Of a DNA stretch of 64,000 bases, positions 2,110-59,151 are shown in pieces. Within the stretch, counting starts at the first letter, position 1; each line of letters begins with the position of its first letter. The stretch covers positions 7,750,931-7,814,930 of the forward strand of contig CM055101.1 of assembly GCA_029204225.1 (NCBI GenBank), read 5' to 3'. The translations under genes and the position numbers were made by a program. The notes beneath the pieces were generated by a model. The model saw only the letters and a program-made list of their open reading frames with translations. It had not been told where the DNA came from and searched no databases. This stretch comes from Diphasiastrum complanatum (Eukaryota > Streptophyta > Lycopodiopsida > Lycopodiales > Lycopodiaceae).

Positions 2110-2640
2110 GGTAGAGACTCGAACGATCAAGTTACAAAAGTAATGGATTTCCTGCATGATACGCAAGAAATGCTACAAATAGCACGTGAGAATGTCTAAA
2201 GTTTCCATGATAGGGATAAACAATATGCCCTAATCTGAAACATCGCCTCGAGACTTTCAAGTGGGGGGATTGGGTGTATTTATGAATCCCGAAGGATTCT
2301 AATGTAATGTGTACCGACAAGCATTGCAAATTGTTCCCTAGATATAGGGGGACCATCCCAAATCTTGAAAAAGATTGGATTCCTTGGCTTACCAATTGGA
2401 CCTTCTAAGTCAACTTAAGAAAATTCTATGCGAAGGGGAACATCTTGAACAATTGGACTTGTTGAATGATTCATCGGTTGTGACTCATCCGAACCAAACA
2501 AGATCTTGGATATTAGAGCTAAACGATTGAGACATTGTATAGTTACCAAGCATGTGGTTTCATGGAATGGTCGTACAAACGATGATGATCTAGGAACAAG
2601 AAGGTAGCCCGAAAAGAAACTTCCCCTAACTTTAAGTTCT
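2110..2640 (+). pseudogene. Ty3/gypsy integrase C-terminus plus chromodomain relic
   Basis: Read on the plus strand across several stops and frameshifts, this gives the tail of a gypsy pol. The first part is the integrase C-terminal module, with a VGDWVYL-like stretch and then LFPRYRGP followed by an ILKKIG segment. The second part resembles a chromodomain: ILDIRAKRLRHCIVTKHVV, then SWNGR. In chromoviruses this module is thought to bind modified histones and guide integration. It lies directly before a purine-rich stretch (AAGGGGGGAAAAA) and an LTR-like repeat starting at 2671, the expected order at the 3' end of an element. No complete frame survives, so it cannot be functional. The domain calls rest on motif spacing read by eye. 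Confidence 0.6.
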
Positions 2641-2670
2641 GAGGTTAGAACTTGAATAAGGGGGGAAAAA

Positions 2671-3233
2671 TGTCATGCCCAAGACTGATCTCGGATTGAT
2701 TATCCCGTAAGAGGTCAGTAGACCTATTACTTATGATTACGAGGGGTTTGGGGCCTCAAGAGCAGATAGTCATAATCATGGTTGGAGGCCTAAACTCATG
2801 ATGGTGGATTATTATGGGTCTATCAGTGAGTCATAGGGGAATTGGATGACGGTGGCCAATTAGGCTACAGAGGTGTCTAGTGAGGTGTCACAGTGCACTA
2901 CTAGTGGTGCAAGGGCCTTGGAGGGTATAAGTATACCCATTGGGCTCTCCACTAGTGTATGCTTGATTATGTATGAGTACGCTACATGTTGCTGGTATGA
3001 CACCCTCTATCTATTGTGAGAGATTGATCCATAGCTTGGGGGTAGATCCATTTGATCTAGGTTTGGTTGGGTGGGTTTGTCCACCATCCGATTCCCCTTG
3101 TGTTGCTTTGTTGCAGCCTTGCTTGGCCTAGTGTATCCTTGGTGAGAGTCTTTTATACCCACAATTACTTGGAAGTCCACTTCTTCGGGCCTGACGTGCC
3201 ATAACCTGAATTAAGGGTGACCTAACGTAACAC
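2671..3233 (+). repeat. candidate 3' LTR of gypsy relic
   Basis: It starts with TGTCATGCCC right after a polypurine run and a decayed gypsy integrase/chromodomain. The first 200 bp repeat the block at 441-653. The 3' boundary is uncertain; I place it near a CA before the CA/CT-rich stretch. Confidence 0.5.
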
Positions 3234-3330
3234 ACACTCTCCACTCTCCTCTCAACACACACCATGCACTCCCTCTCTTTCACACACACACCACACGTCA
3301 CTCACTCTCTCTCTCTATCTCTTCTCTCTC

Positions 3331-3363
<33 letters not shown>
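3234..3363. repeat. CA-rich then (CT)n microsatellite
   Basis: Interrupted CACACA runs lead into an imperfect (CT)n tract from about 3302 to 3363. The reading frame across it is low-complexity and not treated as a gene. Confidence 0.85.
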
Positions 3364-3365
<2 letters not shown>

Positions 3366-4433
3366 GTTGAGAACTACACACAATTGATGCAAAGGAAAAT
3401 GATTGGTGACTAGTCGAAACACAAGCTCGATTGAATGTGTCAATAGGCAAAAGGAGGGCTAGAGAGTAGATTGGAGCAGAAGGAAAGTGTGAGCCTATGG
3501 ATGGCATAAATGAGAGGAAAGGGGCTGAAATGCATAGAAAAGTTGTCCCAGGTGGAGGCAAAGTGACAACCCCTCTTTTTCTTGATTGATCAATATGGTG
3601 TTTTTGAAATACGTTCCCTTGCTCCAAGAACATTATTAGGCATCCCCAGTAGGAGATTCAGATAAATGTCATTCCCATGTTTCCTAGTGGGTAGTAACAT
3701 TCCGTGGAAACATTTTTTAAGGGAGTCAAAACATTGAGGAGAGTTAATACTTTATTCTAATAGATTACTAGGTTTAGAATACTAGACACATTCAAACACA
3801 CACACACTCAAGGACCAATCATTCTTTGAGTGGCCCCTGCCATAGTAAGAAAAGAATTTGAATAAATAGAAGAGTCCTAGAGCTCATGCCTTTAGTGAAA
3901 GCTAGCAAGAGCGTACATCTTTATCTGTCATGTGCCTAATCATCCCAATTTCAAGCATAAATGAGATCAACAAACTGTAGCAAGGACTAAAACTACTTTC
4001 ATTCATAAAATCAAGTAAACATTATAAAATGAGCATAACCATCATTTGAGCTCATGAACATGCAGATTCCAAAGCATAGATGAGATCAAATTTTGTATTG
4101 TAGTAAAACCACATTCAAGCATAAGATCAATAAAGGCATTAGATAATTGACGATTAAATCATTGAATCATTGAAATACATTCCCATTTAAGATATAAGGC
4201 CTAGATCTAGAGATTGACGTGCTCTTTTGTGAGGATGAGCACACAAAGCATGTTAGGGCCCTAGTGATGAATTGAACATCACCTCATTGGAACAAGCTGC
4301 TATGAGGTTCATAGGACCAGCAAGAACAATTAGGACAGCTGACGATATAGCCATCGTAAGTTTGTATAGGTTGGGTGTGTCGTTATTTGCACCTTGCGTA
4401 AGGTAGGGCAATTGTTTCCATCAAGCACCTAGT
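3364..4433. other. no gene recognised
   Basis: AT-rich, with a short (CA)n near 3797. The sentence-like repeats AAGCATA/GAGATCAA recur at 3950-4130, but no coding frame or transposon terminus was identified. Confidence 0.4.
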
Positions 4434-5109
4434 TGTCACATCCATAAGCAGTCAAGACCAAGACCTGGGCTAGTTGGCACCACAAGCCAAGGTTGTACAA
4501 TGATCACCAAGGCACAACAAGGCAAAGGGGTGGTTGTTAGCACTACACCTTTCAGGGCGGTTGAAGGATAGGGAGCAGGTAGTGGTTTGGCCAACCACTA
4601 GTGGACTATGTGGCCTAGGATTGAAAAGGTAGGTATAGGGCTTATAAGGGCCTATGGATGAGAGCATCAGTTAGTTTTGGGAGATGATTTTGGGGTTGAG
4701 AGCATCTTCTATCACTTTGCTCTTGTGAAACCCAACCTACATAGGATTTGTGAAATTGTTTGTAACTTCTTTAATACTCAGTATTTTCATATCTGTCAGT
4801 TGCAATAGGCTTCTTGTGGTAGGTCGTTGGTAGGGTAGGGCTTCTTTCCTTTTTGTTTAGTGATTATCCCTTATTCTTTGTTGATTGTCAATTTGAAAAC
4901 CCTAGTCTGCTGATTTTTGAGAAGTATCTATGAGCAGTTACAATTTGGCTGTAGAAGGTCTATTCTATCCAGTTCTCTTAGGAATTTAGGTTACTCTATT
5001 TATATAGTTGGTTTGAGGTGCTGAGAGCTTGTTTTGCTTTCAAGGACTTTAGCTACTTAATTTTGCATAGGTTTGTAATTGTTTTGCTTTTGCTGACTAT
5101 TCTTCTGCT
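4434..5109 (+). repeat. candidate 5' LTR and leader
   Basis: TGTCACATCC start, TATA-like CTTATAAGG near 4640, then an untranslated leader running to the gag ATG at 5110. The LTR/leader boundary and the PBS could not be fixed because no second LTR copy is present in the window. Confidence 0.4.
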
Positions 5110-5960
5110 ATGACATCCACAAGCAATACTAGTCATGATTCTTAGAGGATTGATGCACTTTCTGCTAAAGTTGATGGCATGGAATTGAAGCCTGGTCCTA
5201 CACTTGAAATCAAAGATTTGAATCCCCCATAAGTTCGCAGGAGCAATATCTATGAGTAATACAGATGCTGTGGAAAGTTGGTTACTAAAGTGGGAGAAAG
5301 CATTCTAGATGTGTGGCATTGATAGATGACCTAGTTCCAACCACATGGGAGGCATTTCGGCAAATGTTTATTCAAAATTGGGAGTCAATGGATGAGAAGA
5401 ATAAGGCTATGCAATTATGGACATTTTTGAAACAGTGTAACTTGAGCGTGAAAGATTATGCAGATGAGTACTGAGAGGCTTTATTACACATTTCTCAGGA
5501 AGTTCCTATGTTCATGCAGGTGTTTCATTTTGTGGAGGGACTTCAAGAGACTATATGTCCTTTTGTCAAAAAGGAGCAGTCTCATGATTTACGGGGAGCC
5601 GTGCAGATGGCGTTGTATTATGAAGTAAGCAAGAAGGGCCTAGATCCTAATGCAGTAGTGGTTACTAGAAGCCAGCAACGTTGAGGATGCAAGAGCAAAC
5701 GAAACAAAAAGAGAATGTTTGAAGGTCAAACCAGCCAGTGGCAAGCTTAGGGTGATGAAAAAGGCAAGGTTGTAGGGCCCCCCAAAGGCAAAGGTTTGTA
5801 TGGGCAACCTAATGCTCAAAAGGGTCAATGTCCTTCAATGTTGTTGCCATAGGACCAAGAATGTGCAAAGAGGGAGAACCTTTGTTTAGATGTTTAGGGC
5901 AACGTAGGTGGAAAGAATGTCCACGGAATCAGATGCGAACCACATAGAATCTTCAAGTGG
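5110..5960 (+). pseudogene. gypsy gag with degenerate zinc knuckle
   Basis: The frame opens MTSTSNTSHDS and, after stops, gives a recognisable retrotransposon gag domain around 5350-5640: TWEAFRQMFI, then a KDYADEY segment and HFVEGLQ. At 5880-5935 a CFRCLGQRRWKECP segment sits where a CCHC knuckle is expected but lacks the histidine. Gag normally forms the virus-like particle and packages the RNA. A TGA interrupts the domain after KDYADEY, and more stops occur upstream. Confidence 0.6.
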
Positions 5961-20070: not shown

Positions 20071-20862
20071 AAGTACAAGAGCATAAGCCATTGATCTAAT
20101 GCAAATCCATTTTTAGCAAGTTTTGTTGCTAAAAGCTAGTATTGAGAGGGCAAGCTAGAATCTTGATTTTGGTGAGGAGATTTGATCCCAAACTTGGTAG
20201 GGGTCCAAATCCGTACTATCCACATGTGTGGGCACCTCTGAGCCTGCATTTAATGCATGGTATTCATTTGATCCAAAAAAATTCAATTTGTGAGCTATTG
20301 GTGTAATTTTTGGTGGAGATCCTAGGATAATCTACCAAGATCATTTGCCATTGATTAGATTTGAATTTGTTTCATGGAATCTAATTAATCTAGGCTGAGT
20401 TCAAGTCCTATTAAGGTTAAAAACAGGTCTTGAAAGTACACCAAGAAGGAAGAAAGAGATTAAGTCATTTTTTGGTCCAAAAATAGCCAAAATTGGCAAG
20501 ATTTGATTGTAAGTAGATTTCACATCATCTTATCTTCATTCCAACTTTGTGAGGGAGTGCTAGAACTGAGATTATAAGTCCATTTGTTGGATTAGAAATC
20601 TAATTTGAGTGAAAAACTACAAGAGAGAGACCTTAGTGAGTTTCTAGAGACAATCAAATCCATTTCTTGGCAAGATTTGTTTGAAAGTAGTTTTCACTTC
20701 ATCTTATCTTCATTCCAGCTTTGTGAGGGAGTGATAGAACTGTGATTATAAGTCCATTTGTTGGATTAGAAATCAAATTTGAGTGAAACACTGCAAGTGT
20801 GAGACCTTTGTGAGTTTCAAGTCAATCAAATGTATTTCTTGTTTGTAGAAGTCACTAGTAAG

Positions 20863-21888
20863 ATGGGATCTGTTGGAGCATACCTTCTAGAAGCTAGTGA
20901 GAGGTTGAATTCTACAAATTATGCTATTTGGAAGGTTAGAATGGAGTCACTCTTAGTGCTCCAAGACCTTTATGAGTTCTTTATTGAAGATGAAGATGAA
21001 CCTCTAGGTGCACAGGAGTTAGCTAGATACAAGAAGAGATCTAGGCTTGCACTTCATTGTGTGAAGATGAATGTGAGCAATGATTTGTTGAGAGAAGTAT
21101 TAGCTTGTACTAATGCTAAAGAGGATTGGGAGTCTTTCAAATCAATCTATGAGTCTAGCAACACTTCTAGAGTTCTTATGCTTAGAAATCAAATTTTGCA
21201 AAGCATGAGGAGAAGTGAGGAGAGTGCACAAGATTATGTACTCAGAATCAAGTCTCTAAATAAGGAGTTGGCTTCCATTGGAGAGAAGATTCATGATGGA
21301 GAGCTTGTACAAATTGTCCTTAATGGTCTAGGAGATGACTTTGCAAATTTGGTCCAAAGTTTTGCCATCCAAGACACTTTGCCAACTATAGAAAAACTTC
21401 ACAGTGTATTAGTGGCTGAAGAGTGTAGGATGCTCCATGCAAAATCTAGGATGAGTTCCTTGTATTTGCAGGATGGTGATGAGAAAGCCAATTTCTCATT
21501 CAAGGGCAAAAAGAAGACCAATGGAAAGAAGAAGCATCCAAAGGAGGCCAAAGAAGAGGATGATGCATCAAGCTCAAAGGACAAGTCAAAGCAAAAATGC
21601 TTCTTTTGTGGATGGAAGGGGCATTATGCATCTGAATGCTACAAGAGGCTAAGAGCACAAGTGGAGGAGGACAAACAAGGAAACCTTGCAAAGGAGGAGG
21701 AGGAGGATGAAGTAGATGTATTCTTGATGGCATCTACAAACTCACCAACAAGCAATGGCAATTCAAGAGACAATTGGTGGATCGACAGTGGGGCTAGCTC
21801 CCACATGTCTTGTGAAAAGGACTTTTTTTCAACCTTACACTCTTTCAATGTTGCTAAAAAGTTTGTCTTTACTGCAAATGATGAATAG
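20863..21888 (+). CDS. copia Gag-protease, 341 residues, ends at an in-frame TAG
   Basis: The chosen ATG (in AAGATGGGATC) gives MGSVGAYLLEASERLNSTNY, matching the gag starts of related copies here. The copia gag core follows (ALHCVKMNVSNDLLREV; EDWESFKSIYESSNTSR). Next come a Lys-rich linker, a CCHC knuckle CFFCGWKGHYASEC near residue 245, and the protease site WWIDSGASSHM near residue 315. The frame ends at TAG (21886-21888), but protease-like sequence continues in the same frame past it. Gag packages RNA and the protease matures the particle. An upstream in-frame ATG at 20830 would add 11 residues. This is one of the best-preserved frames in the window. Confidence 0.88.
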   Translation: MGSVGAYLLEASERLNSTNYAIWKVRMESLLVLQDLYEFFIEDEDEPLGAQELARYKKRSRLALHCVKMNVSNDLLREVLACTNAKEDWESFKSIYESSNTSRVLMLRNQILQSMRRSEESAQDYVLRIKSLNKELASIGEKIHDGELVQIVLNGLGDDFANLVQSFAIQDTLPTIEKLHSVLVAEECRMLHAKSRMSSLYLQDGDEKANFSFKGKKKTNGKKKHPKEAKEEDDASSSKDKSKQKCFFCGWKGHYASECYKRLRAQVEEDKQGNLAKEEEEDEVDVFLMASTNSPTSNGNSRDNWWIDSGASSHMSCEKDFFSTLHSFNVAKKFVFTANDE

Positions 21889-23210
21889 TGTAGGATAGAT
21901 GGTGTTGGCACCATCTCTTTGTATCTAGAATCCTCAAAATGCATGGATCTAGAAAATGTCCTTTATGTACCATCAATCACCAAGAATATGCTTAGTGTTG
22001 GTCTACTCTTAGAGAGTGGTTTGGATGTCCACTTTAAGCATGGTGTTTGCTTCATCTTGAAGAATGATGTTTGCATTGCAAAGGGATTTAAACATGGAAG
22101 ATTGTTTAATTTGGAAGCTAGTGTTGCTTTTGAAAGAATGAGCTTGGCGAAGGAGGAGATAACTCAAGAGGAGATCTTGGCAAAGTGTGATCTTGCTTGC
22201 ATTGAGGAGGAGCATCAAAAGGAGGAAGATCTTGAGGATCAGCCTCATATGAGAGTTCCAAGGGAGTCCTCAATGACAATGTCTGAGTCATCAAATTGCA
22301 TGCAAATTGTCCATTCAAGTGTGCATCTTGCAAGGGTGGTGAGCATTGGAGAGTCTTCTATCTTTGAATACTTTTTGGAAAGTATTAGTAGACATGAGGT
22401 GACTTGTTTCTTACCTTTAAGATTCATGGTGTTTATTACTTTGTATGACAAGACAATGCTTCTTGGTTTAAGTATAATGCTTCTTGGTATGACAAGACAA
22501 TGAAGTGGGATGCTTTGAAATCTACATTTGTTGTTGATAAAGCAATTTCATTGGATAACTATTTTTGTAATAGTTTGAATAGAGTCATAAAAGATGAAAT
22601 ATCATTTGCTTTGGAAATCTTTGTGTCCACATGCTTTGAGCATGATCATTCCAATGTAAGGACCAAACATTATCCTATTTCAATGATAGGAATAATGGTA
22701 GTGTTTTGCTCTTCAAGTAGAGATTGTAGAATCTACTTGTTTTCAACCAAAGAATCTGTCAATGGTGGAAATGTGATCTTTCAAGAGTGGAAGATTTGTA
22801 AACTTGAAGAGCACCTTTGGAGCAACACATTATTCAATTCATTGATGTTTTGGAGTCAAGTCAAGTGGAGGATCAAGCTCAAGACCCGAGGACTCCAAGA
22901 AGAACCTTGAGTATCAAGATGGAGCCATCTAGGCTCAATCATATGGATCAAGCAAGGCAAGTTGTCTTTGGCAACATTATGTATGCACTTAATATTTTAA
23001 TTGATGTATCTTCAAGTGCACAAAATGCCTTGGAATCCATGGCTTGGCATGATGTTTAGTTTTGAAGTGTGCTACATGTATATAGACACATTTATGGAAC
23101 ATCTTGTAAGGGATCCTCTAAGAGGTGGTGAAAGATCCTTCATGGACATCATTCTCTATTGGAGTCTCAAAAGTTCCTTGTTTGTAGCTGGATTTTTTAG
23201 ACACTTCTAA
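21889..23210 (+). pseudogene. protease tail and internally deleted pol remains
   Basis: In frame with the preceding gag-protease, past its TAG, the sequence reads LENVLYVPSITKNMLSVG and then a pre-integrase-like segment, ending at 22503. Beyond that the residues do not match integrase. At about 23070-23170 a short stretch (YIDTFMEHLVRDP, then GGERSFMDI) resembles the RT C-terminus of the related element at 58117. Integrase, most of RT and RNase H are therefore deleted. Confidence 0.7.
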
Positions 23211-28666: not shown

Positions 28667-28696
28667 TGATACATCTAACATTTTCAACTTTTGCAG

Positions 28697-29668
28697 AAGG
28701 ACCATAAGTTGGTATCAAGAAAAAGAGTTGCAAGAGAGATCGAGAATATTATTGATAGGATAAATCACATGAATATTGATTTTGGATCATCATTGGCCCT
28801 AGATGATGCTCTTGTTGATGATGACCCCTTGCATGATATAACTAGTTCATCAATGCCTTGTGATTCAATCCATGTCTCCAAATCTCTAGAACGTTCTTAC
28901 CACCCAATCACACCTATTCTAGATGTTGCACATGAGTCCTCCACCATACTCCACGTGGATTCCACAAACTTGACCACCCCTTTAAAAAAGAGAACACGTC
29001 TTGGACGTATTATGACTAGTTTGAAAGATAATTGCAAATTACTACGCACTGTTGATGTGTCAAAAGACATTCTAGGTCCTTTGTCTGACCTTCCTCTTCT
29101 ACCTAGCTTGCAACCATTAGTAAAAACTTTTATTAGAAGTAGATATTCGTGTTGGCCACTCCAATCACCATTACCTAGTGAACACTTTCCTGAGGCTGGT
29201 TTGGGCCTTTTTGCATTGAGTAGTACTGAGGTCCCTTTAAATAGTGTTGTGACATTGATGCCATATGCAGGACCTCAATACAATTGGGGTGGTTGGCATG
29301 CTTTGTGTCGTCACCATTGGAGGATGCAAGTATATGGCTTGAGTTCAAATGCTTGTTCTTTAGGGGAGCAACACATGCAAGGAGGCAACATCTCAAGGGC
29401 AATTCGTACATACATTGATGGACGTCCAGATGTGCATGGAAACATTGCTGCATATATAAAGAGTTCCATTGGCCACCCTTTATTGACAAACTGTGAATTT
29501 GAAGAACACACCAATGGAAAAGAAGAATATTTTACTAGGAATGTAAAGGGCACTTATGTAATGGTCTATGCCACTATATCTATCAGGTTTGGGGAGGAAT
29601 TGTTCATCAAGTATAGTTTCAACCGTCGTCTAACCAAATGTTTGCAAAAGACAATAAGTCAAATGTGA
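28697..29668 (+). CDS. SET-domain-like protein, long 3' exon
   Basis: The exon starts after a TTTTGCAG acceptor and stays open for 323 codons to TGA. The first half is basic then acidic/serine-rich, with RLGRIMTSL. The second half follows the SET fold: GLGLFAL near residue 168, YIDG near 239, GNIAAYIKSS near 248, NCEFEE near 265, and VYATISIRFGEELFIKYSF near 290. SET proteins transfer methyl groups to lysine, often on histones. The usual NHSC motif at the active site is replaced (KSSI), so catalysis is doubtful. It lies on the same strand between CACTA transposase fragments. It may be a captured host exon, a transposon gene, or a host gene disrupted by insertions. Upstream exons are not certain. 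Confidence 0.6.
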   Translation, partial: KDHKLVSRKRVAREIENIIDRINHMNIDFGSSLALDDALVDDDPLHDITSSSMPCDSIHVSKSLERSYHPITPILDVAHESSTILHVDSTNLTTPLKKRTRLGRIMTSLKDNCKLLRTVDVSKDILGPLSDLPLLPSLQPLVKTFIRSRYSCWPLQSPLPSEHFPEAGLGLFALSSTEVPLNSVVTLMPYAGPQYNWGGWHALCRHHWRMQVYGLSSNACSLGEQHMQGGNISRAIRTYIDGRPDVHGNIAAYIKSSIGHPLLTNCEFEEHTNGKEEYFTRNVKGTYVMVYATISIRFGEELFIKYSFNRRLTKCLQKTISQM

Positions 29669-33614: not shown

Positions 33615-34231
33615 ATGCCTTCACCATCAACATCCAAAAAAGTACCATCAATCACATCATCAACATCAAGAATGTTAGATCCAATGTCTACACCACCACT
33701 TGGTGCATTCATGAAGGAGATGGTTCTTCTACATTCTTTTGTGATGAGTCCAAGAAAGTCATTTTTCTATCCAATGTCCACACCACCACTTGGTGCATTC
33801 ATGAAGGAGATGGTTCTTCTACATTCTTTTGTGATGAGTCCAAGAAAGTCATTTTTCCAGCAAGTGGAGTCACATTTCTTCATAAAGAGAGTAGATCAAA
33901 TGGTTCTATCAAGAGACTTGGTGAGGGAGATAGTCACAAGTCAAGAAGAAGAGAAGTATGTGAAGAGTTCAAAGTAGGATGTACTTTGAATGATGTCATT
34001 GTGAATGATAGTGAGGAAGAATCATTATCATATGAGTCATTACCTAAATCATTGAATAGAAGTTCTTGTTTGAAAAATGAGAGTACTTCAATCATCCTTA
34101 TGTTGAAGGTACTAATTATTTTTTTCATGGCTTCTAATGTCTTTGAGGTTTCTACTTCTTATATTAGAGGAGTTTCGAACACCAAAAGGGCCTTTTGTCA
34201 AGATGCTGTTTTTGACTTTTCAACTATTTGA
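33615..34231 (+). pseudogene. unrecognised Ser/Pro/Thr-rich frame with internal duplication
   Basis: Two overlapping frames are open. The more protein-like one starts MPSPSTSKKVPSITSSTSRM and ends at 33977 with an acidic-basic tail. It contains two 30-residue repeats starting MSTPPLGAFMKEMVLL, made by an exact-length 90-bp tandem duplication. No family was recognised. The location just upstream of the C48-like unit may or may not be meaningful. Confidence 0.3.
33681..33860 (+). repeat. 90-bp tandem duplication
   Basis: 33681-33770 and 33771-33860 are nearly identical, both starting CCAATGTC. The period is a multiple of three. Confidence 0.95.
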
Positions 34232-34582
34232 CGTACACTTGGGCCAGTTATATATTTACACCTGTGAAAGACCGTAACATTGTTTGCCGATCGATTTCTT
34301 TTTTGGAACTTTTCGGCCATATTTTTATACAACTCAAAACTCCCGTCGAGCAGGGTCTTGACTTGTGATTGGACCGTAATTGTTGCCCGTGAGTTTCCTA
34401 AGTGCACGAGACCTAACACTCGTGGTTAAAGTAAGTCTATTTTGATCTAACCATACTTAGAGTAGCATATATGATTCATGAAAGACCGCCAACATTTATT
34501 ACAAATTTGGTTTTCTATTTTCATACTGATTCAACTAAATTTTGTTTTAGACTATGTTGTTCATCTTCTTTTAGCTTTGCAA

Positions 34583-35521
34583 TGGCTTCGGGAAGCCGTA
34601 GACCACAAAGCAATATTGTCTCAGTTTATGTTTGTAATGAAAATACTCTGATGGCTCTTGGATACCATGTATCTATAGAAAATTTTACTGGGTTCTCATG
34701 CATCCCTCATCAAGAGGTGTTTTTGGTATAAAGAGAAAATCAAATATGGACTATAGGAATTTTTGGAAAGGTAGAATTTTAGATTTCAAAGTTTCACCCG
34801 GTGGTCGATCCATTTCAAAGGTCTTGATTCAACATGTCTACATGCATAAGGGAATTAGAGTGGAAGGCGTAAGTTCGAATGACAGACTCAAATGCAATTG
34901 TAAGTTTTGGAGAATTCTTTGCTTTGAGATTTGCATCAATCATTTAGACGTGTATCTGAGTATTTAAATGACATATAGTTTTATGAATTTGTGCATATTT
35001 GTATCCATCAAGCATAATTGAATGGCAACCTATACAATCCCTTGTCGGCATCATGGACATTATTCATTTTGATATTGGTCTTCTGCAATACAAGAACCGC
35101 TCCACGAGATCACTTTTGGATTCTTGTATTTCTATGATTCATTGTACACACCATCCAATTTAGGTGGAAAATTAGAGGCGATATCATTACCCTCTTTCTC
35201 AAGCGAAGAATGGATTCCTTTAGATTCCACCATAGCAGAGAGCTTACAATCAAGATTTTTTATGGACATTCAAAACTGTATGAAATGTAGCATAGGTTCA
35301 AAAAACAATAGATGCCTTTTGCAATATTTGTAGATTTTTTTGTTGAATGTAATATTCGTAGAACAATGACAATGTTTATTTGTAGTGATTTAACAGACAA
35401 TATGCTATCAAGCCTCCTTGATGATTATTGGGATAAAAAGAGTATTGGCAATATCGGGTGCATAGTTAATAGATCGTCAATCAAATTTCGATATCTTATA
35501 GAAAAACAAGTTCTTTCTTAA
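34583..35521 (+). pseudogene. possible decayed C48-type peptidase unit
   Basis: ATG at 34583 opens MASGSRRPQSNIVSVYVCNE. After a frameshift a segment reads NFWKGRILDFKVSPGGRSIS and ends at a GTAAGT donor near 34901. Around 35113-35155, DHFWILVF and, one frame over, YDSLYTPSN resemble the His and Asp motifs of Ulp1-type peptidases. At 35300-35440, a Gln and Cys region (VQKTIDAFC, then FFVECNIRR and LLDDYW) fits the distal Gln/Cys part. The blocks lie in different frames and I could not trace clean splicing, so this is tentative. The neighbouring minus-strand gene has a much clearer C48 domain. Confidence 0.35.
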
Positions 35522-36226
35522 CATTTTATTATAGAAGATGGTCCAAAGTTGACAATGGATGGAAAGCATTGGATCAGAATTTTACAGTGAATCATCAAGA
35601 TCAAATAGAAATCCAAGTGAGGCAAAATAATTCTACTGTTACAACAATTGAGGTGGAAGAAGATTGGATACTCGATCACATTCGATCAGAGCTGACCTTG
35701 CTGCAATATGATATTTCTAAACACTTCTGTTTTTGAGTCAACAAGAGATTGGTAGGTGTATGTGTATTTATTTCAGTACACATTTGAAATGACTTTTAAT
35801 GATTTTATCTAAACATGTTTCAGTGTTTTTGGTATTGCAATATTTCATTTAAAATAATCTCAATGTTGATATTGTTTAACAAGTTTCTTTGATGTACAGG
35901 TAAGACCAAGACAAGTAAGTTGCATACAGTGTAAGGACTTAAATAGAAGCGTAGAAATTGTTGAAACCGCATAAACATTGGGATGATAGACGAGCAACAA
36001 CAATGTACTTTAAAAAAAAAAAATACGAAGAAGTCTCAAATGACTTCAAAATTTCATCAAACAATTTGTATTTAGTATTTTAAAAAATGTACATCGTTTT
36101 TAAAATTGATATAATATATTCATGGCATACAGTAATAGCCAACTTTCTATTTGCCTATCTGTTGTTCTATGCGTCATCATGTGATGATATATTTCTATGC
36201 GTCTGTTGGAACTTATGTGACAATAT
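35522..36226. other. no gene recognised
   Basis: AT-rich with a poly-A run at 36010. It separates two converging units (34583 plus, 38088 minus). Confidence 0.4.
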
Positions 36227-37623
36227 TTACATTTCAATCAAAGGTGCTTGAGTCATATCCTCGAGCACTGCAACTTCATCCACAGATCCCCTAACAAGTT
36301 CATCCGAGGCACCTTCATGCTTGTAGGGCCTTGCACACGATAGTAAAATTTCCAACATTTCATGCCAATACTGATGAATCACATTTGTTGATACCTCAGG
36401 ACATTGGAACTACAAGATAAAATATCGAGTGTATGTATGTATTAGCCAATGTTTTAAAAAATATAAATTCACAAAGTTAACAATATATCATCATGATACT
36501 GGAACTTGAGAAAAATACTTCACAGATACTAGCATCTGGAGGTTGCACCATACACCAATCCAAGAACGATTTAACATTCTAGATTGAATACCATCCGCAG
36601 CTAAAAACATCATCTTGTTGCGAAGACTGAGAATCACAGTGAAAAATTGTTAAATTATAATTCAATATAATTTTAAACTCCATGCCATCATGCAAATAAA
36701 ATACGTAAAAAAATTCTTTTTACCTTTGCATCAACAATCTCTATATTGGTATTTACAATCAGCCCATCCGGGGCCTGGGCAATAGCTCCACCATCCTCTT
36801 GTACATGGACTTAACCATGGAATGAGTGGCATGCAAAGAATTCATTGTCATGCACACATGTGTGCAGCTTCCAGTAGAATCCACTTTCATGGATATGACG
36901 TGCACACTCCAATGTTTGCTGCCAGAAAATGACAAGCAATGAATTACTAGAATCTATAAGAGTTTCCAAAAAGCAAATTTTACAGAAAACAAATATTACA
37001 AGAATAAATTATCTTACTTTGAACAGTATGGGATGATGAACATTAATGCCTCCTTGCTACTGTGCCTGAAGAGCCTTCTGGATTTCCTCTCTTTATTCAA
37101 CAGATGCCCAAAAAATGGAGATACGACAAAAATCTCCTTCGTGATTGTATATGTGTATTTATGTACATAATATGCACAAGCGGATTCAACAACTGTGTCT
37201 GAGATATAGGAGGTCTTCTCTTTTAGCTTTCTACAATGCGGGTCTTTGATATGCATTGCAAAATTAATATCGTCTATACAAAACATAAACTCTTCTCCAA
37301 GATCATCTATTTTCTTGGCTATATACATGTCAAAATCAATGTACCTCTCAGAATAATAAAAAAGTGTCTTTAGGTTCATTGGAAAGTCCGATGTGCAACT
37401 CTTTATCAGTTGCATCAACATCAGAAACAATCATGTCCACCATTGTATTTAGGTCATCCGCATGTATAGAAGGAGAATCTTGCAGTTGAAGATCAGGGGT
37501 TAGGGGAGGACTCTCAACCAATAGAATTGCAGACGTACTAGCCAGATCTTTTCTAATGGGAGGAGGTGAGGGTGAAGAGCTAGGAGACCTGGGCTTGGGT
37601 TGCGAATGCTTGGGCTGTGCTTG
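36227..37623 (-). pseudogene. C48 (Ulp1-like) peptidase part of the CENH3-like gene
   Basis: In the same frame as the CENH3-like part, past a TAG, a Pro/Ser-rich linker runs to 37360. One frameshift in a T run then gives a Ulp1-like fold: TSYISDTVVESACAYYVHKY, IFVVSPFFGHLL, MFIIPYCS. Intron 1 (37017-36919) joins in phase to NKHWSVHVIS, with the catalytic-type His, and MNSL, where Asn replaces the usual Asp. Another frameshift near 36800 precedes NTNIEIVDAK. Intron 2 (36723-36627) joins in phase to SSQQDDVFSCGWYSI, with the oxyanion Gln and catalytic Cys at canonical spacing. After a TAG, intron 3 (36518-36410) joins in phase to a last exon ending TAA at 36227. C48 enzymes remove SUMO-like tags. 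This copy looks degraded, but splice sites and core residues persist. Confidence 0.72.
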
Positions 37624-38088
37624 CTATCTCTTTTTTTGGGGTGGGACAGGCCCCCTTTCAAGAGGAACTTGCCTTTGTGTGAAGCTAGACTTAAAAATGC
37701 TGTCATAGGTGTTTCGAAGCCTCATGACAAGAAGCCTGTCCTTGGGCATCAGTGTCACCCTCTTTCCATGAATGAAGCACAACATCGAATCCTCAAACAA
37801 TTTTGTCTGGAAGTCCTTGTATGCAGTATGGAGTGCCTCCAATGTAGTGATATTCCACCTCACTACATAGGGCAAATGAGTGGTCATATCCTGTGTAATC
37901 TCCCTGACAGCCAGGTAGAAGGCTGCTTTCGGGATCAGAAGTTTGGTGCTCCTCTGTAATGCCCTGATGTCCCTCAACCATGGACAGCGAGGTCTTCCGC
38001 GTCTTTGCGGATGTATGGGTTCAGAAGTCTGGGGACGAGACGGTTGAACAAAGTTGGTAAGCCTAGCGGGTTGCTTCGTCCGAGCCAT
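37624..38088 (-). CDS. CENH3-like histone H3 variant, N-terminal part of a fusion
   Basis: ATG at 38088 gives 154 residues beginning MARTKQPARL, the canonical H3 start, then a divergent tail. The histone fold follows: WLRDIRALQRSTKLLI (alpha-N, about 37-52), FYLAVREITQD (alpha-1, 57-67), a long loop 1, TLEALHTAYKDFQTKLFED (alpha-2, 82-100), then CFIHGKRVTLMPKD. By count, the span between QD and LFED is four residues longer than in canonical H3, and loop 1 ends VVRWN. A long loop 1 and this Arg-Trp are CENH3 features, so a centromeric-variant origin is likely. A TAG ends the frame after PPQKKR. The same frame continues into a linker and a C48 peptidase. It lacks introns, unlike typical plant CENH3 genes. 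Confidence 0.72.
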   Translation of the reverse strand: MARTKQPARLTNFVQPSRPQTSEPIHPQRRGRPRCPWLRDIRALQRSTKLLIPKAAFYLAVREITQDMTTHLPYVVRWNITTLEALHTAYKDFQTKLFEDSMLCFIHGKRVTLMPKDRLLVMRLRNTYDSIFKSSFTQRQVPLERGPVPPQKKR

Positions 38089-38149
38089 TGAGACCGGATA
38101 TCTATACCACGTGAGGACAGAGATACAACAGAAGAGAAAGCTAGATTAT

Positions 38150-38337
38150 CTCGCGTGATGGTGACACTGAAAACTCTGAGGGTGATATCGCTACGATGCG
38201 AGAGAGTAGCAAAGTCAGGCGGGGAGAGAAAGAGGCTCGCGTGCTAGCGATACTGGGAGAGTCAGGCTGATATCGCTATGATGCGAGAGGGTGTAAGGAA
38301 CATGCCTAGGGATGAGGTCGCTCGCGTGATGGCGATA
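38150..38337. promoter_or_regulatory. left block of alternating 17-bp motif (five copies)
   Basis: Copies of TATCGCTAYSACGCGAG or its complement lie at 38150 (-), 38186 (+), 38236 (-), 38271 (+) and 38321 (-). Minus-to-plus starts are 35-36 bp apart and plus-to-minus 50 bp. The block lies in the 5' flank of the CENH3-like gene. Orientation strictly alternates. Confidence 0.75.
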
Positions 38338-38459
38338 TCACGAAAGCAAGTTGTATGGAAGCAATCAAACGTGAAAGCAAATTACACGAAAACCTATACA
38401 ATCCCCGAGAATGGACTTATATAGGGAAAAAAAGTTGGCAAGTGTGAATACTTGCGACA

Positions 38460-38825
38460 CATGGCCCAATCAGTAACTGACATGTGGAACCACATGTCTG
38501 TATACACACGTGTGAAACTGCACATCTGGATCAACAGTGCAAGATCCCACATATGGACATGTGGCCGAATGGATCAGCGACATGTATTTTTGCACGTGTG
38601 GGCATGTGGCCCAATCAGTACCTGACGTGTGGAACTACACATCTGTATCCGCACGTGTGAAATTGCATGTACGGGCAACATGTGTGGGACTTGCACGCGT
38701 GACCACATGGTCGAATGGTTTGGTGACGTGTGTTCTAGCATGTATTAGCTTGCACATGTGGGCACGTGGCCAAATGGCAGATTGACGTGTATTGTAGCAT
38801 GTGTGGTCTCGCACATGTGGACGGT
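38460..38825. promoter_or_regulatory. degenerate array rich in CACGTG/CATGTG words
   Basis: About 60-140-bp units recur. CATGTGGCCCAATCAGTA occurs at about 38461 and 38605, and a shorter unit starts near 38703 and 38763. CACGTG or ACATGTG (G-box/E-box-like) words occur more than a dozen times. The array sits midway between two divergent genes. Confidence 0.6.
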
Positions 38826-38897
38826 TATATTACGCGTCATAGATCTGATCCGTTGTTGGATTGATGCACATACGGCTTGGATTTTATTGGTTTTAGC

Positions 38898-38905
38898 TAT
38901 ATAAA
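38898..38905 (+). promoter_or_regulatory. TATA-like box of the plus-strand gene
   Basis: TATATAAA, about 270 bp upstream of the ATG at 39171. The plus-strand transcript would start in or just before the right motif block. Confidence 0.4.
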
Positions 38906-38994
38906 TGTTGTTTGATCAGTTAAAACCTTTTGCTAAGTTTTGGATTTTCACTCCCTGTAGCTCTTGGTGTGTCACCACTACTAGTTCTTTGTAG

Positions 38995-39143
38995 TATCGC
39001 TACCACGCGATAATCTATTTCAGATTCTAGATGATCTTGGATCCCTCGCGTCGTTCCGATATCCGATCATTCACCAATATCGCCATCAGGCAAGGATTGC
39101 TTGATTGTCTTCTAACTCCCTGCCACCCCGCGTCGTAGCGATA
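38995..39143. promoter_or_regulatory. right block of alternating 17-bp motif (four copies)
   Basis: Copies at 38995 (+), 39045 (-), 39078 (+, weaker) and 39127 (-), with spacing 50, 33 and 49 bp. This is the same geometry as the left block. It lies in the 5' flank of the gene starting at 39171. Confidence 0.7.
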
Positions 39144-39170
39144 CTCGGCCCTATTGGTCATGCTTTCAAG

Positions 39171-40717
39171 ATGGCTGCCTCATCTTCTAATAATTTTGAT
39201 TCTGCATTGCACACCTTCCTCGTTGAATCTGGTGTTGGTAACCACATAGGTCACTATAAGACGTATTTCAATATGTCTTTTGATATTGAGAGGTCTGGAT
39301 CAGTATGTAAATCCTATTTTCCAGCATTGTATAAATAGTATTATGATAGTCTGAATCAGTCTATGTTGATAATAGATAATCTACGATTCATCCATTTCCA
39401 TGACCTGGTACTTGCCCAACCATTTTCAAAGCAAAGCCACAACCAACGATTCACGAAAATAGTGAGTGATTTTAAACGTGTGGTCCATTGTGACCAGCAC
39501 AATCGATGATGTCGCTTTTTGTAGGAAGGCATGGGCTTTGTGTTTTATCTTTCTGCTCTTGTTCTTGAGGAGGTAGAAACTTCGAGGCTAAGCATTGAGG
39601 GTGTCTCATCATCAACTAATTCTATGATATCAGAGTCAGCTATTGTTGATGACGCCTTGGGTGCTGACGAGGAGGCAAGATTGGCAGCAATGTACGACCT
39701 AGCCGAGTCTCGTGCATTGTCCATTTCTTCCTTATCTGACGTGAATCCATATGACAAAACCAGGACTCTCCTCGATTTGTCGGTGCATTACATTAATAGT
39801 GTCGCATGACTCTCCCTGAATGATGTTGGATGTGTTCTTAATCTGAGGGAGGACAAAATATTATCAATTTTGTCTAATTTCATCAAAGAATTTGGGGACT
39901 TCATAGATCTCGATGGTGTGATGATCTACGTGCTTCTATTGATTACAAAGACGAAGATGAATGGCTGGATGAGACTAAAGCCCTGCAGTCAATCATGTCT
40001 GAAAGTAGGGCATACCAGACAAATTTGCCCTATGAGGAGGATTTTTTGAGAATCCGAAGTATATATGTGTCACAGTCTTCGGAAACTAATCCATCCACTG
40101 CTTGTTGCGGGTCATGATCCACATACTGCTGCACTTATTCAAGCTGATGAGCATGATCTGGTACGTAAATTAGGTTTTATTTGAATGAGTTTTTTATTCA
40201 AATATGGTTATTTTATTTTTTAAGATATGTGACCTTTGTTCGTATTTTACAGACTGTTGTGGAGGTGGATGCCTTTGCAACAAGGCATGGATATTTGAGG
40301 GAAGGCCAGAGATCACGACAAAGGGATTCATCCCTGTCCAATTATTTGAAGTGCTTTGTAAATAAAAAGATTTGCATTCATCATAGCAAATTTTCTTCAG
40401 ATGTTGCGACAATAATAATGGCAATTAAAGCGTTATCCTATTTCTCGAACGGGCGTAAATACCCTCCGAATACATATAAAATTATTTTTGCGAAGAGAGA
40501 CATTGTCATAAAATTATTTGGCTATGTAGCTGAGGAAGTTCCGAAAAGGTCTTCCTCCTTAGCTATTTTCTCTGGATACATTGACTTGAGCAAAAGAAGA
40601 TCCATTGATTTTCTAGATCCATATGATAGAATTTTTTTTTTTCATGACCACACAACAAAGCTGATCATTAAATACAAAGAGAAACAATCATTTTGCCTTG
40701 CATTGTACTTGAAATGA
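39171..40717 (+). CDS. unknown three-exon gene diverging from the CENH3-like gene
   Basis: Exon 1 (39171-39302) encodes MAASSSNNFDSALHTFLVES and ends at the donor GTATGTAA. Intron 1 (39303-39524) joins in phase to EGMGFVFYLSALVLEEVE. Exon 2 has an acidic Ser-rich stretch, a TGA at 39807 and at least two frameshifts before HDPHTAALIQADEHDL. Intron 2 (40161-40252, GTACGT...TTTTACAG) joins in phase to a 155-codon last exon: TVVEVDAFATRHGYLREGQ, a basic middle and a long Phe/Ile/Lys-rich end. No family was recognised. In-phase splicing argues that it once coded for protein. The shared motif blocks suggest co-regulation with, or mobilisation beside, the CENH3-like gene. Confidence 0.5.
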
Positions 40718-41709
40718 TGCGATATAATACATATATTTTTTTCGTCTAATATCATGAAAATTACTATGGGTTGAGTCTTGCATCAATATTATTTTTGTCT
40801 GTAAATTTGCACGTCTTTATAAATTTCTGATAATTTGTTGATCTAGTTTTATATCGGATTTGAATACGCCTGTAGAACCATTGAAATAGCTGGATGATGT
40901 AACTATTTTTTTGAGATGTTCCACCGTGTTGTGTATTTCGATGAAATGCTGCTCTGGCTTGCCAATGCGATTTCTCCATTCCTTGTAATGACACAGTTCC
41001 TAAAGCTTGAGCATTCTTTCCCCCTGTTATCTTTCACATAATTACTTCTTATCATTTGTGCGAATACGCTCTGTATGATCTGTGATTGATTGTGATACTG
41101 TTCTGTTTGCGTCACACACATTTCTTACGTTATATAGAATTTCAGTTACTCTAAAATGGATTTTCAGGCGACACCAGCAAGTAACAATTCTGACTAATAT
41201 GTGCAGGGAATTAGCTGAAGTTGTTAAGCATAACCTTTAGCAAAACTTCCTTTAAACTCTAAATGAGCTATGTGTTCAGATAATGAGATTGTTTGATGTT
41301 TCAATTTGTTTGCTTTCTATGATAAGAACTAATCCTCTGTGTTTGATTAAGAAGAATCCTTAGCCAATGTGATTCTGCTTCATGAATCTATTTGCTAGTT
41401 GCGTTCTGACTGTTTACCTGATGTCTGAAGAGCCTGGAAGATAAAGTAATCTTTACAATTGCGACCTTGACCAAATGTTTCATCTTTGGTGTTCCTAGAT
41501 GCCAATTTACCCAAATATCTTTGGATAACCAGTTATGTCTCTATAGTATTCATTGTGAATTTTATGCATTCTAGTCTGTTTACCATCATACATATATTTA
41601 CCATGCAAAGGATGAGATTATTCTCTCTCTTGGGGAACGATCAAATTTTTTATGCTATGTAATTCATCGCTTTTGTGGAAATCCATAACAACTAGGCCAT
41701 CACATAATT
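40718..41709. other. gene-free; probably includes a gypsy 5' LTR
   Basis: AT-rich, with no frames of note. The PBS at 41710 implies that an LTR occupies the right part, but no second copy is available to define it. Confidence 0.4.
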
Positions 41710-45692: not shown

Positions 45693-46755
45693 TCAACAAA
45701 CTTTAAATACAGAAAGTTTTGATCTAAATTTATCAAACTTTTCTCCAGTAAGTGGCTTAGTGAAAATATCAGCTAGTTGTTCTTCTGTGCTACAATGAAC
45801 AACATGAATTTCACGACTCAGCAGCCTCTCACGTATGAAGTGATATTGAATCTCAATGTGTTTAGTTCTCGCATGGAACACTGGATTCTTTGCTAGCTGA
45901 ATGCCACTCTGACTGTCACTATGTAAAGTCGTGGGATTTTTTTGCTGTATGCCAATTTCTTCCAAGATTTGTCTCAACCATATAGCTTCTTGTGCAGCAC
46001 TACACATTGCCTTATACTCTGCTTCTGTGGTGGAAAGAGCAATTGTACTTTGCTTCTTACTAGACCAGGAAAAGCAATTACCACAAAACTGGAATATATA
46101 TATCCTGTGGTGGATCTATGATCATCATAGTCACCTCCCCAGTCCGCATCCACACAGCCACACAACTCAGGTAAACCATCATGCTTCCTGTAAATCAAGC
46201 CATACTCTAAAGTGCCTTTCACATAATGCAAAATGAGTTTAGCTACTTTCCAATGCGTTTCCGTAGGTGCTGCCATAAACTGACTTACAATGCCAACAAC
46301 ATACCATATATTTGGTCTAGTTGTGGTAAGGTAAATCAAGCTCCCTACTAGCTGTCTATATAGCGTAGCATCAAATGACTGTGAAAGCTTTTTACCTGGT
46401 TCAATAGGAGTGTTTACTGGTTTGCAATCCTGCAACCTAAACCTGTGCAACAACTCTTTGACATACTTCACCTGTGTTAAACCCACTTCATGTCCTTTTT
46501 GCCACACTTCTACTCCAAGGCAGTAATGCATCAGGCTGAGATCCGTCATCTCAAATTGTTCCATGAGGTCTTTCTTGATCATGTCTATCATCTCTTGATT
46601 ATTTCCCGTAATAATCAAGTCATCAACATAAAGAGCAATCAAAGCAACCATACCATCAAAGCATAAGACATATAGATTTGGATCAGAATGTGTTCTCACC
46701 ATCCCTTTTGAATGAAAGTAGGCATCAATCCTGCTATACCACGCACGTGGTGCTC
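45693..46755 (-). pseudogene. copia RT C-terminus and RNase H
   Basis: From AWYSRIDAYFHSKGMV (46755) the frame runs through ALYVDDLIITGNN, with the catalytic DD pair, LGVEVWQKGHEVGL, LVGSLIYLTTTRP and CVDADWGGDYDDHRSTTGYI. A frameshift near 46045 leads to the RNase H end: MCSAAQEAIWLRQIL, ARTKHIEIQYHFIRERL and EQLADIFTKPL. The 5' part of pol is missing; similarity ends at 46756. Confidence 0.85.
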
Positions 46756-56849: not shown

Positions 56850-58138
56850 TTATCTAACGCCATGGGAAGTATGAGTAGCAAAAGCACTATCACAAGAATT
56901 AGCATACTCGTTGGGATCAAGCTTGTAGATTCCACCATATCTAGACCCAAATGCAAGGATCTCATCATGCTTCTTGATTGTACATGTATCAACATTGAAA
57001 TTCACATCTAGTCCACTATCAAACAATTGTCCAACACTAATAAGATTTTTTGTTAACTTGGGAACAAAAAGTACATTAGACAAAGAAAGAACTTTTGATG
57101 AAGAAAGCTTTAAGGGAATGGTCCCTATGCCTTCAATAGCACACTCATGATCATTTGCTGTGTAAATGGACTTCTTGGCTCCTTCATAAGGTGACATGGA
57201 TGAAAAAGAATACTTGGACCTACACATTTGTGAGGAAGCTCCACTGTCGATATACCATGAACTATCCTTCTTGAAAGGTGATGAAGAAAAACTCGAGACC
57301 ATAAGAGATCCCTCTTCATCACTTGCATGAGCATCTTCCTTCTCTTCATTAGAAATGTTGGCTTGCTTGAATTGACTCTTCTTCTTGAAACAATTGGTGG
57401 CATAATGCCCCTTCTTGCCACAAAAGAAACACTTGATGTGTTTCTTCTTCTTTTTGGATGTGGAAGCTTGAGAGGACTCATCCTCATCTCCTTTCTCCTT
57501 GGAAATAAGATTGTTCTTGCTTGAAGAGGATTGGTGTTGATTCTTACTTCTTGTTTTGTGCTTGTCTTTGGTAAAGAGAGCTTTACCATCAATGTTGAGA
57601 GACAGTCTCTCCATTTTCAAGAGTTTATACTCTTGTCTTGATTCTTCAAAAATGAGCACACTTTGGAGTGCTTCCAAACTTGGTAGCTCCTCCTTAATGG
57701 CATAACTCTAAACAAGGTTGTCATATTCCTCCTTTAACCCATTAAGTATGACTTGAACAAGTTCATTTTGGTTGATGGAGTCTCCTATGCATGACAATTC
57801 TCTATGGAGGTCTTTAACTCTCATTACATAAGCTGAAGCACATTCATCACTTCTTTGTACACTTTGAAAAATTTGGTTCTTAGTGTTAGAGGTCTAGAAG
57901 TATTTTTTGCCTCATAGATAGACTTGAGAGTATCCCAAGCATCTTTGGCATTAGTACAAGCACCAATTTCTCTTAAGATGTCATTTGAGACATTCATCTT
58001 AATATAATGCAGAGCCATCCTGGCTCTCTTTTTGTACTTTGGAATTTCTTGAGAAATTTGTGGTTCTTCTTCAATGCCAAGTACAATATCCATCACATCT
58101 TGTCCAAATTGAGTAATTGGAGGTTGATAATCTTTCAC
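56850..58138 (-). pseudogene. copia gag and protease, minus strand
   Basis: From 58138, gag reads MALHYIKMNVSNDILREIG and AWDTLKSIYEAKNTSR. Frameshifts near 57830-57680 follow. The long frame 57677-56850 then gives a Lys-rich linker, CFFCGKKGHYATNC (CCHC knuckle), YIDSGASSQMCRSKYSF (protease site, Gln replacing the usual His) and LSNVLFVPKLTKNLISVGQL. It belongs to the same lineage as the gag at 20863. It ends without integrase and begins abruptly at 58138, where a plus-strand RT starts. Confidence 0.82.
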
Positions 58139-59151
58139 TTGCTTCTAATAGAAAGACACCCATTGAAGTCATAAAGAATGATGGAAATAAAAAAAAATGG
58201 ATGAAAGAATTGCTTTTCTTCAAGCTAGTTGATGAAACTAAGCTAGCACTTGGATGTGAGTTTAAAATGCAAGATCTAGGAGAGATACATTACATCCTAG
58301 GCCTAAAAATTGATTTTTATGAAAATCATGTCTTTATATGCCAATCTAGATATGCTCACTCTATGTTGAAAAAATTCCATATGGAAAATTCTAAGAGCAT
58401 AGATACTCCAATGGAGCAAATTGTAAAACATCCTAATAAAGGTGATGAAAGATCCTTTGAGGACATCACGCTTTTTAGGAGTCTTGTAGGCTCCTTGATT
58501 TGGCTTACCATTACTAGGCCCGATCTAAGTTTTTGTGTGCACAAATTGAGTCAATTTATGCAAGATCCTAAGATCCATCATTGGAAGATGGCCAAGAGGA
58601 TTCTAAGATATGTATCTTCATCTTGTGATTATGGCCTACTTTATAAAAGTGAAGATCTAGAGATTGTTGGCTACTCGGATTCGGACTTTGCAAGTGACAA
58701 GATGGATCGAAAGTCTATTAGTGCATACACTATCTTTCTTGGAGGCAGTCTAATATCTTGGATTTCCAAAAAGCAAGATACTATATCTCTCTCTTCATGT
58801 GAGGCCGAGTACAAAGCACTCACTACAACTACCAAAGAGGTGCTTTGGATCAAGAGGTTATTAATGGAGCTAAAGTGCATCAAGGAAGATGATCTACCAA
58901 TGATCAAGTGTGATAACATCTCGGCCCAAGCTCTTGCCAATAATCTCATATTTCATGCAAGAAGCAAGCACATAGAAGTGGCACACCATTTTGTGAGAGA
59001 AAAGCTTATTGGAGGAGAAATCTATTTGGAGCATGTCACCTCATCCTCTTGTATTGTCGATCTACTCACCAAGCCTTTGAGCAAAAGTGCTTTCATCAAG
59101 CATAGATCTAATCTTGGAGTTATATCAAGATCAATGCTTAAATCTTCATAG
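58117..59151 (+). CDS. copia RT C-terminus and RNase H, open frame
   Basis: The frame is open for 344 codons. Recognisable RT sequence starts near 58195 (LALGCEFKMQDLGEIHYILG) and continues through NSKSIDTPMEQ and LVGSLIWLTITRPDLSF. Complete RNase H follows: IVGYSDSDFASDKMDRKSIS, SSCEAEYKAL, ARSKHIEVAHHFVREKL and CIVDLLTKPL. The first 25 codons look unrelated. Integrase and the RT fingers/palm, including YVDD, are missing, so the polypeptide cannot polymerise DNA. A polypurine tract TTTTTTAGGAG and an LTR follow directly. Confidence 0.85.
   Translation: MEVDNLSLASNRKTPIEVIKNDGNKKKWMKELLFFKLVDETKLALGCEFKMQDLGEIHYILGLKIDFYENHVFICQSRYAHSMLKKFHMENSKSIDTPMEQIVKHPNKGDERSFEDITLFRSLVGSLIWLTITRPDLSFCVHKLSQFMQDPKIHHWKMAKRILRYVSSSCDYGLLYKSEDLEIVGYSDSDFASDKMDRKSISAYTIFLGGSLISWISKKQDTISLSSCEAEYKALTTTTKEVLWIKRLLMELKCIKEDDLPMIKCDNISAQALANNLIFHARSKHIEVAHHFVREKLIGGEIYLEHVTSSSCIVDLLTKPLSKSAFIKHRSNLGVISRSMLKSS

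Follow-up and report, generated by a model that had tools for sequence, protein, structure and literature searches.

A clubmoss transposon carries a gene that joins an H3-like histone fold to a C48-like domain and may encode an anti-silencing factor

RESULTS

A decayed four-exon gene copy on the minus strand

The window analyzed here is a 64,000-nucleotide stretch of the 1.745-Gb Diphasiastrum complanatum genome (C10:7750931-7814930). On its minus strand lies a decayed copy of a gene whose parts are as follows.

38088-36227, minus strand: decayed four-exon gene copy, in the order H3-like histone fold, Pro/Ser-rich linker, Ulp1/C48-like domain
37696-38088, minus strand: H3-like histone, tail (ARTKQ..., non-Lys at position 9) and fold, from Pfam, PDB, AF2, and Foldseek
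37624-37626, minus strand: in-frame TAG of the window copy, which L022 and L025 (open copies) lack
37362-37695, minus strand: linker, basic and then Pro/Ser-rich and acidic, up to the T-run where the frame changes
37018-37361, minus strand: N-terminal part of the C48-like domain, at the end of exon 1 (89% identity to L022 residues 241-357)
36919-37017, minus strand: intron 1, 99 nt, GT-AG
36724-36918, minus strand: exon 2, which holds KHWSVHV with the His and MNSL with Asn where Asp is expected, internally frame-broken in the window copy
36627-36723, minus strand: intron 2, 97 nt, GT-AG
36519-36626, minus strand: exon 3, with QQDDVFSCGW (Gln, Cys) and one stop in the window copy
36410-36518, minus strand: intron 3, 109 nt, GT-AG
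36227-36409, minus strand: exon 4, C-terminal tail to the stop

Translation from the ATG at 38088 yields 154 amino acids and ends at the TAG. The same frame continues past this codon through the linker, and the frame changes at the T-run near 37361. A preliminary description of the locus had named the TAG, the in-frame linker, and the frame change, and all three are present; the lengths and GT-AG borders that it gave for the introns are exact, and other copies splice at the same places. It had also judged the copy decayed. The decay is real, but the damage was understated, as exon 2 has a frame break and exon 3 has an extra stop. Exon 2 is 195 nt long in the window copy versus 193 nt in L022 and L025, so that its two halves lie in different frames.

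Elsewhere in the window, a 325-amino-acid open frame at 28691-29668 (plus strand) has a weak SET-domain match (PF00856; E 3.7e-4, 21.3 bits, below the cutoff of 22.4). Copia-type retroelement pieces (gag, RVT_2, and Pol_BBD) lie at 20830-22503 (plus), 45974-46702 (minus), 56850-57677 (minus), and 58117-59151 (plus).

The two domains are linked across copies and families

The H3 part is repeated in the genome, with at least 150 copies scored at 73 to 100% identity out of 6,824 candidates. Among 26 distinct family 1 loci (31 entries minus five repeats, taken as the best-scoring copies and thus a nonrandom draw), the N-terminal part of the C48-like domain lay after the H3 part, in the same orientation, in every case, and the HW exon and the Cys exon were each found in 23. 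Nine more diverged loci were drawn from the H3-like frames found by a genome search with Arabidopsis CENH3 and were mostly chosen for long open frames, so that they too are a nonrandom sample; 13 matches at 59% in this search we take for host H3 genes. The C48-like domain followed H3 in seven of the nine, which are all seven of the loci in families 1b (L044) and 2 (L043 and L047 to L051), each in the order H3 fold, linker, C48. No C48 was found within the approximately 2 kb read at the other two loci, L045 and L046. These two form a third H3-like group (family 3) marked by KWLQ(D/N)IR, to which several matches at C15:31.0-31.9 Mb may also belong; similar-looking frames cluster locally on C15.

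The preliminary description had proposed one fused gene and had called for intact relatives. When L022 was spliced at the sites that it gave, the result was a protein of 517 amino acids with no stop and with all introns GT-AG; L025, spliced likewise, is open over 512 amino acids. These two are the only open rows, and stops were present in the other 17 of the 19 spliced rows. Between families, intron 1 lies between an IPYxxK stretch and an xHW codon, and the QQ motif follows the end of intron 2. The GT and AG of both introns are retained in L048, L049, L051, and L044 where read, and the first donor is lost in L047 and L050. This architecture is kept between families at identities of about 48% in the H3 part and about 27 to 30% in the C48 part. 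Hence, the H3-type histone fold and the C48-type domain are encoded together in a single gene, and the linkage across loci rules out a pair of unlinked genes or a chance frame. A protein database search with the L022 protein returned two proteins, both histone bearing and neither with C48. The nearest database protein, P0002, is from D. complanatum itself.

The N-terminal part is an H3-type histone fold that is equally identical to H3 and to the CENH3s compared

The frame starting MARTKQ had been described as containing an H3 fold, and this was borne out. The window histone part matched Pfam Histone (PF00125) with an E value of 4.6e-20 (72.5 bits; cutoff, 26.4) and histones H3 in the PDB with an E value of 1e-19. 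An AF2 model of this part had a mean pLDDT of 77 and helices alphaN, 1, 2, 3, and C, and the 50 matches listed in a Foldseek search with the model were chains of nucleosome or histone-octamer structures. The N-terminal part of the element protein is an H3-type histone fold. K4 of the tail was retained in 22/22 copies, and position 9 was Leu or Phe in all of them. C110 and H113 were retained in 22/22 copies and R116, D123, and R83 in 21/22; we take these five residues to be H3-H3' tetramer and DNA contacts.

The preliminary description went further and called the fold a centromeric-histone mimic with a longer loop 1. There are likenesses to CENH3/CENP-A, namely, the H3-type fold, the MARTK start, and CENH3-like residues within the fold (LLIP, RW, DSMLC, and RVTLM). 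However, the element histone is 0.45 identical to each of H3.3, Arabidopsis CENH3, and a Setaria protein that we take for a CENH3 (97 aligned columns). Relative to H3, loop 1 is longer by four residues in family 1 and by one in family 2 and is of equal length in family 1b; the corresponding gains are two residues for Arabidopsis CENH3 and one for the Setaria protein. The long loop is thus clear in family 1 only, so that loop length does not establish a centromeric origin. The clubmoss histone also differs from CENH3/CENP-A in being element borne and fused to C48.

Two trees were compared, both with few reference CENH3s. In tree A, the family 1 element histones form one group (100/97), and P0005, P0019, and P0028, which are CENH3-like by eye, side with the element histones (99/77), a placement that favors the preliminary reading. 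In tree B, these three proteins have no placement on the element-histone side; the element histones, family 3, and a flea H3-like protein stand together on long branches, separate from both H3 and CENH3 (91/87). Neither tree joins the element histones to Arabidopsis CENH3 or to the Setaria protein. Tree B joins families 1 and 2 weakly (58/75), so that it is the architecture and the splice places that argue for one origin of the fusion. The cat flea protein P0003, annotated as histone H3.3-like, has WLREI and an LLIPKAAF signature in common with the element histones and joins them on a long branch in tree A (99/88).

Scored copies were evenly spread along the chromosomes (Kolmogorov-Smirnov [KS] P of 0.65 for 74 thinned copies; the test took 92 of the 150 listed copies, on 14 contigs of known length, less 18 dropped as likely segmental duplicates). 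With the equal identities, the trees, and the variable loop 1, this lack of chromosomal bias led us to drop centromeric identity as an established property. The spread also bears on a targeting function, in which the histone fold would steer the integration complex to particular chromatin (e.g., centromeric) and the C48-like part would trim SUMO from the integration machinery or from the target chromatin. The CENH3-like residues, the long loop 1 of family 1, and the position of P0005, P0019, and P0028 on the element-histone side in one tree (99/77) would fit such a function. The even distribution does not, although it is one of surviving copies and so says little on fresh insertions; we regard targeting as rather improbable.

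The second domain is C48-like, with Asn at the place of the expected catalytic Asp

The second domain had been described as a C48 peptidase, a claim that stands through its relatives and not through the window copy. Pfam Peptidase_C48 was not matched by the window copy, L022, or L025; a five-row family 1 profile had no C48 match in the PDB, and HH-suite with two templates gave family 1 a probability of 0.5%. After splicing, however, the C48 parts of L049 and L044 matched PF02902 with 31.7 and 33.1 bits, respectively (cutoff, 20.7); the E values for diverged relatives were 6.5e-8 and 1.7e-7. When families 1, 1b, and 2 were combined in one profile, it matched Ulp1/SENP proteins alone in the PDB (10/10 at E ≤ 10; best, 2.6e-5), and in a single test, L022 gave a collinear match to a profile of Ulp1, SENP1, and ESD4 (E 4e-5). 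The motif chain HW...(N/D)S(L/M)...QxxxxxCG, which was defined after the motifs had been seen, occurred in 0/200,000 shuffles of a majority-like domain row. An exon-by-exon search of the whole genome with the Pfam C48 model gave three matches, none within the element (150/520 candidates scored). The decayed copy alone fails the C48 model, and its assignment therefore comes from its relatives.

In family 1, the His and the Gln were each retained in 19/22 rows and the Cys in 16/22 (gaps included). The expected catalytic Asp is Asn in 19/20 readable rows and Lys in the remaining one, and the family 1b and family 2 rows likewise have Asn there, so that the domain departs from the His-Asp-Cys triad plus Gln of C48 enzymes at this one place. 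This substitution makes the predicted catalysis uncertain, and we file the domain as C48-like (Ulp1/SENP), with a putative activity. The term deSUMOylase, used in the preliminary description, is plausible for such a protein, but it has to be read with the Asn in mind. Asn is the third catalytic residue in papain-type enzymes, and cleavage is thus possible.

Asn at this place in three families could also mark a pseudo-protease scaffold, in which a noncleaving C48-like part would hold SUMO or SUMO-modified host proteins while the histone fold served as the chromatin anchor. We think this unlikely, given how often the His, Gln, and Cys are retained and given the papain-type precedent for Asn in a cleaving enzyme.

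The fusion gene is carried by a DNA transposon whose transposase-like protein has a predicted RAG1/Transib-type fold

The H3 copies belong to a repeat family; 20 neighborhoods of 10 kb have a common unit around the H3 part. Comparison with a long copy (L018 plus L031) gave an element of about 9.98 kb with terminal inverted repeats, CATTATAGGAGTTCCAAGGCCCAAAAGGGC at the left end and CATTAGAGGAGTTTTGAGCACCAAAAGGGCC at the right. The parts of this element in the window are the following.

34163-41021, minus strand: transposon copy, with the 3' terminal inverted repeat at approximately 34163-34200 and lacking the 5' (left) part upstream of the last transposase exon piece
approximately 40830-41021, minus strand: what is left of the final transposase exon, including the SSQG(I/M)EKSH region and its presumed catalytic Glu; found by tblastn of the TnpE piece
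approximately 39064-40200, plus strand: opposite-strand gene of the element (401-amino-acid open frame in L016; no Pfam match above the cutoff)

The window copy is 89% identical to L018 from 40992 to 34163, and its last transposase piece begins at about 41021, 2933 bases upstream of the ATG of the fusion gene. The upstream transposase core was found in 11/21 loci and its last exon in 14/21, where the upstream sequence read was often about 5 kb or less. Opposite-strand frames occur in L018 at approximately +2271 to +2954 and in L016 at -796 to -1998, both counted from the H3 start on the minus strand, with no above-cutoff Pfam match where scanned.

L052, of family 1b, has the transposase, the opposite-strand gene, and the H3-C48 gene in the same order as family 1. 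At L031, a related transposase (core 76 to 78% identical) and an opposite-strand gene lie at 2470-5764, and the L018 element starts approximately 3 kb downstream. Within the 10 kb read at L031, there was no H3 or C48 match better than an E value of 0.09, which suggests that the H3-C48 cargo may not belong to every relative of the element.

The transposase-like protein is predicted to have a RAG1/Transib-type fold, the type found in the transposases of Transib and ProtoRAG. It matched no Pfam family, and an alignment of it found no relative among viral contigs. Neither MULE nor hAT models were listed in the Pfam scans of the element pieces or of 15 homologs (first 25 of 35 families). The preliminary description had pointed to Mutator-like elements as carriers of C48 enzymes; the carrier here is another element.

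No target-site duplication of 2 to 10 bp was found in any of the four copies that retain both ends (L018, L014, L020, and L030), which excludes from them the 5-bp duplication of Transib/ProtoRAG. The absence of a duplication is unusual for an element with such ends. CACTA or CACWATG ends are typical of RAG1/Transib/CACTA-type elements; the clubmoss element differs from them in its ends (CATTAGAGG), in its lack of a target-site duplication, and in having no Pfam family. It thus has neither the CACTA ends nor the 2- to 3-bp duplication of CACTA (EnSpm) elements, and, among the families listed, no hAT domain; the 8-bp duplication of hAT elements is likewise absent.

The fusion is constrained and evolves faster than the transposase

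Variants were compared among 22 copies, after exclusion of L011, L012, L026, and L029 (near-duplicate or truncated) and of L001 to L004 and L008 (repeats of other loci). For variants shared by two or more copies, the nonsynonymous-to-synonymous rate ratio was 0.47 (fold, 0.41; C48, 0.43), versus 0.86 for private variants (Fisher P of 4e-4); without CpG-like sites, the ratios were 0.36 and 0.84. The variants common to copies are under purifying selection, and the lower ratio indicates that the protein was constrained during the spread of the element and free to decay after insertion.

Comparison of L052 with family 1 gave 82% identity in the transposase core (dN 0.096, dS 1.2), 70% in the H3 fold (dN 0.22, dS beyond computing), and 47% in the C48 N-terminal part (dN 0.47, dS 2.7). 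Between L022 and L044, dN/dS was 0.10 overall (0.06 for the fold and 0.31 for the linker), with dS beyond computing in two of five stretches, the C48 part alone among them. The fusion evolves faster than the transposase, yet it looks constrained.

These data bear on whether the gene is a passenger, that is, two captured sequences, a histone exon of the host and a C48 gene, that were amplified without a function for the element. Capture with mostly inactivated copies is known from H3 sequences in hAT elements of Dothideomycetes (PMC6710886), and most clubmoss copies are broken too. The depletion of amino acid changes among shared relative to private variants, the persistence of open frames, and the persistence of architecture and splice places between families as distant as these (approximately 48% in H3 and 27 to 30% in C48) speak against a passenger, and we consider that explanation very doubtful.

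DISCUSSION

We interpret the locus in the window as a decayed copy of a transposon-carried fusion gene, H3-like and C48-like, whose product is a likely anti-silencing factor for the element, a reading that we hold with no more than middling confidence. H3K9 methylation is a main transposon-silencing mark of plants. In the mechanism that we propose, the histone fold would pair with H4 and enter or dock onto nucleosomes, a step suggested by the retention of C110, H113, R116, D123, and R83 in 21 to 22 of the 22 copies. Entry into nucleosomes is not assured, since the histone part is just 45% identical to H3. Nucleosomes with a tail that has K4 and a non-Lys residue at position 9 could not bear H3K9 methylation. 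Loss of K9 is usual in CENH3 tails too, and it need not be an adaptation. The C48-like part would remove SUMO from chromatin silencing factors at the element, or would bind SUMO if Asn in place of Asp kills catalysis; in this way, the transposase gene would stay expressed.

A stronger form of this proposal is a selfish histone, in which the element's own H3 variant would replace H3 on the element copies, could not be methylated at position 9, and would bring a SUMO protease with it, the result being an "unsilenceable" nucleosome. If this were true, the fast divergence of the H3 and C48 parts (70 and 47%, versus 82% in the transposase core) would record an arms race between element and host. 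We put it forward tentatively, as a possibility with the balance against it.

The nearest working analogy for an anti-silencing role of the clubmoss fusion would be that of VANC and the KIU elements. Ulp1-carrying Mutator-like elements of flowering plants (Kaonashi/KIU, and VANDAL with VANC) have C48 as an accessory coding sequence (PMC13317346), and VANC proteins of VANDAL elements counter silencing (PMC13317346 and PMC10398659). They and the clubmoss element alike are plant DNA transposons with an accessory C48 domain. Unlike the clubmoss element, they are not mentioned as having a histone fold in the available part of PMC13317346. The clubmoss transposase matches no MULE model and is predicted to be RAG1/Transib-type, and the inverted-repeat ends are of the CATTAGAGGAG type.

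For the histone part, the comparison is with hAT elements of Dothideomycetes (Pseudocercospora fijiensis and relatives), which have amplified H3-like sequences, with 784 copies in P. fijiensis; in that species, truncation affects 90% of the H3 copies and RIP inactivates copies, and in Pyrenophora tritici-repentis, many amplified H3 copies are said to be transcribed (all from the available part of PMC6710886). As in the clubmoss, a DNA transposon has amplified H3-like sequences to hundreds of copies. The carrier in the fungi is a hAT element, and that part of the source mentions no fusion to another domain, whereas in the clubmoss, the H3-like sequence has diverged, is fused to C48, and is subject to purifying selection.

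The preliminary description knew of no protein with this pairing, and our literature survey agrees with it: in the open-access literature surveyed, no transposon-borne histone-C48 pairing was found, the fungal hAT-H3 elements being the nearest case. Transposons with chromatin genes are already known, and it is the conserved fusion of a histone and a SUMO protease for which the survey found no precedent. The predicted fold of the transposase suggests, in addition, that a land plant harbors an element whose transposase is RAG1/Transib-like in fold. If the proposed mechanism is true, the fusion would give a mobile element a direct way to alter its own nucleosome, and, in a clubmoss, it would link the removal of SUMO with evasion of silencing.
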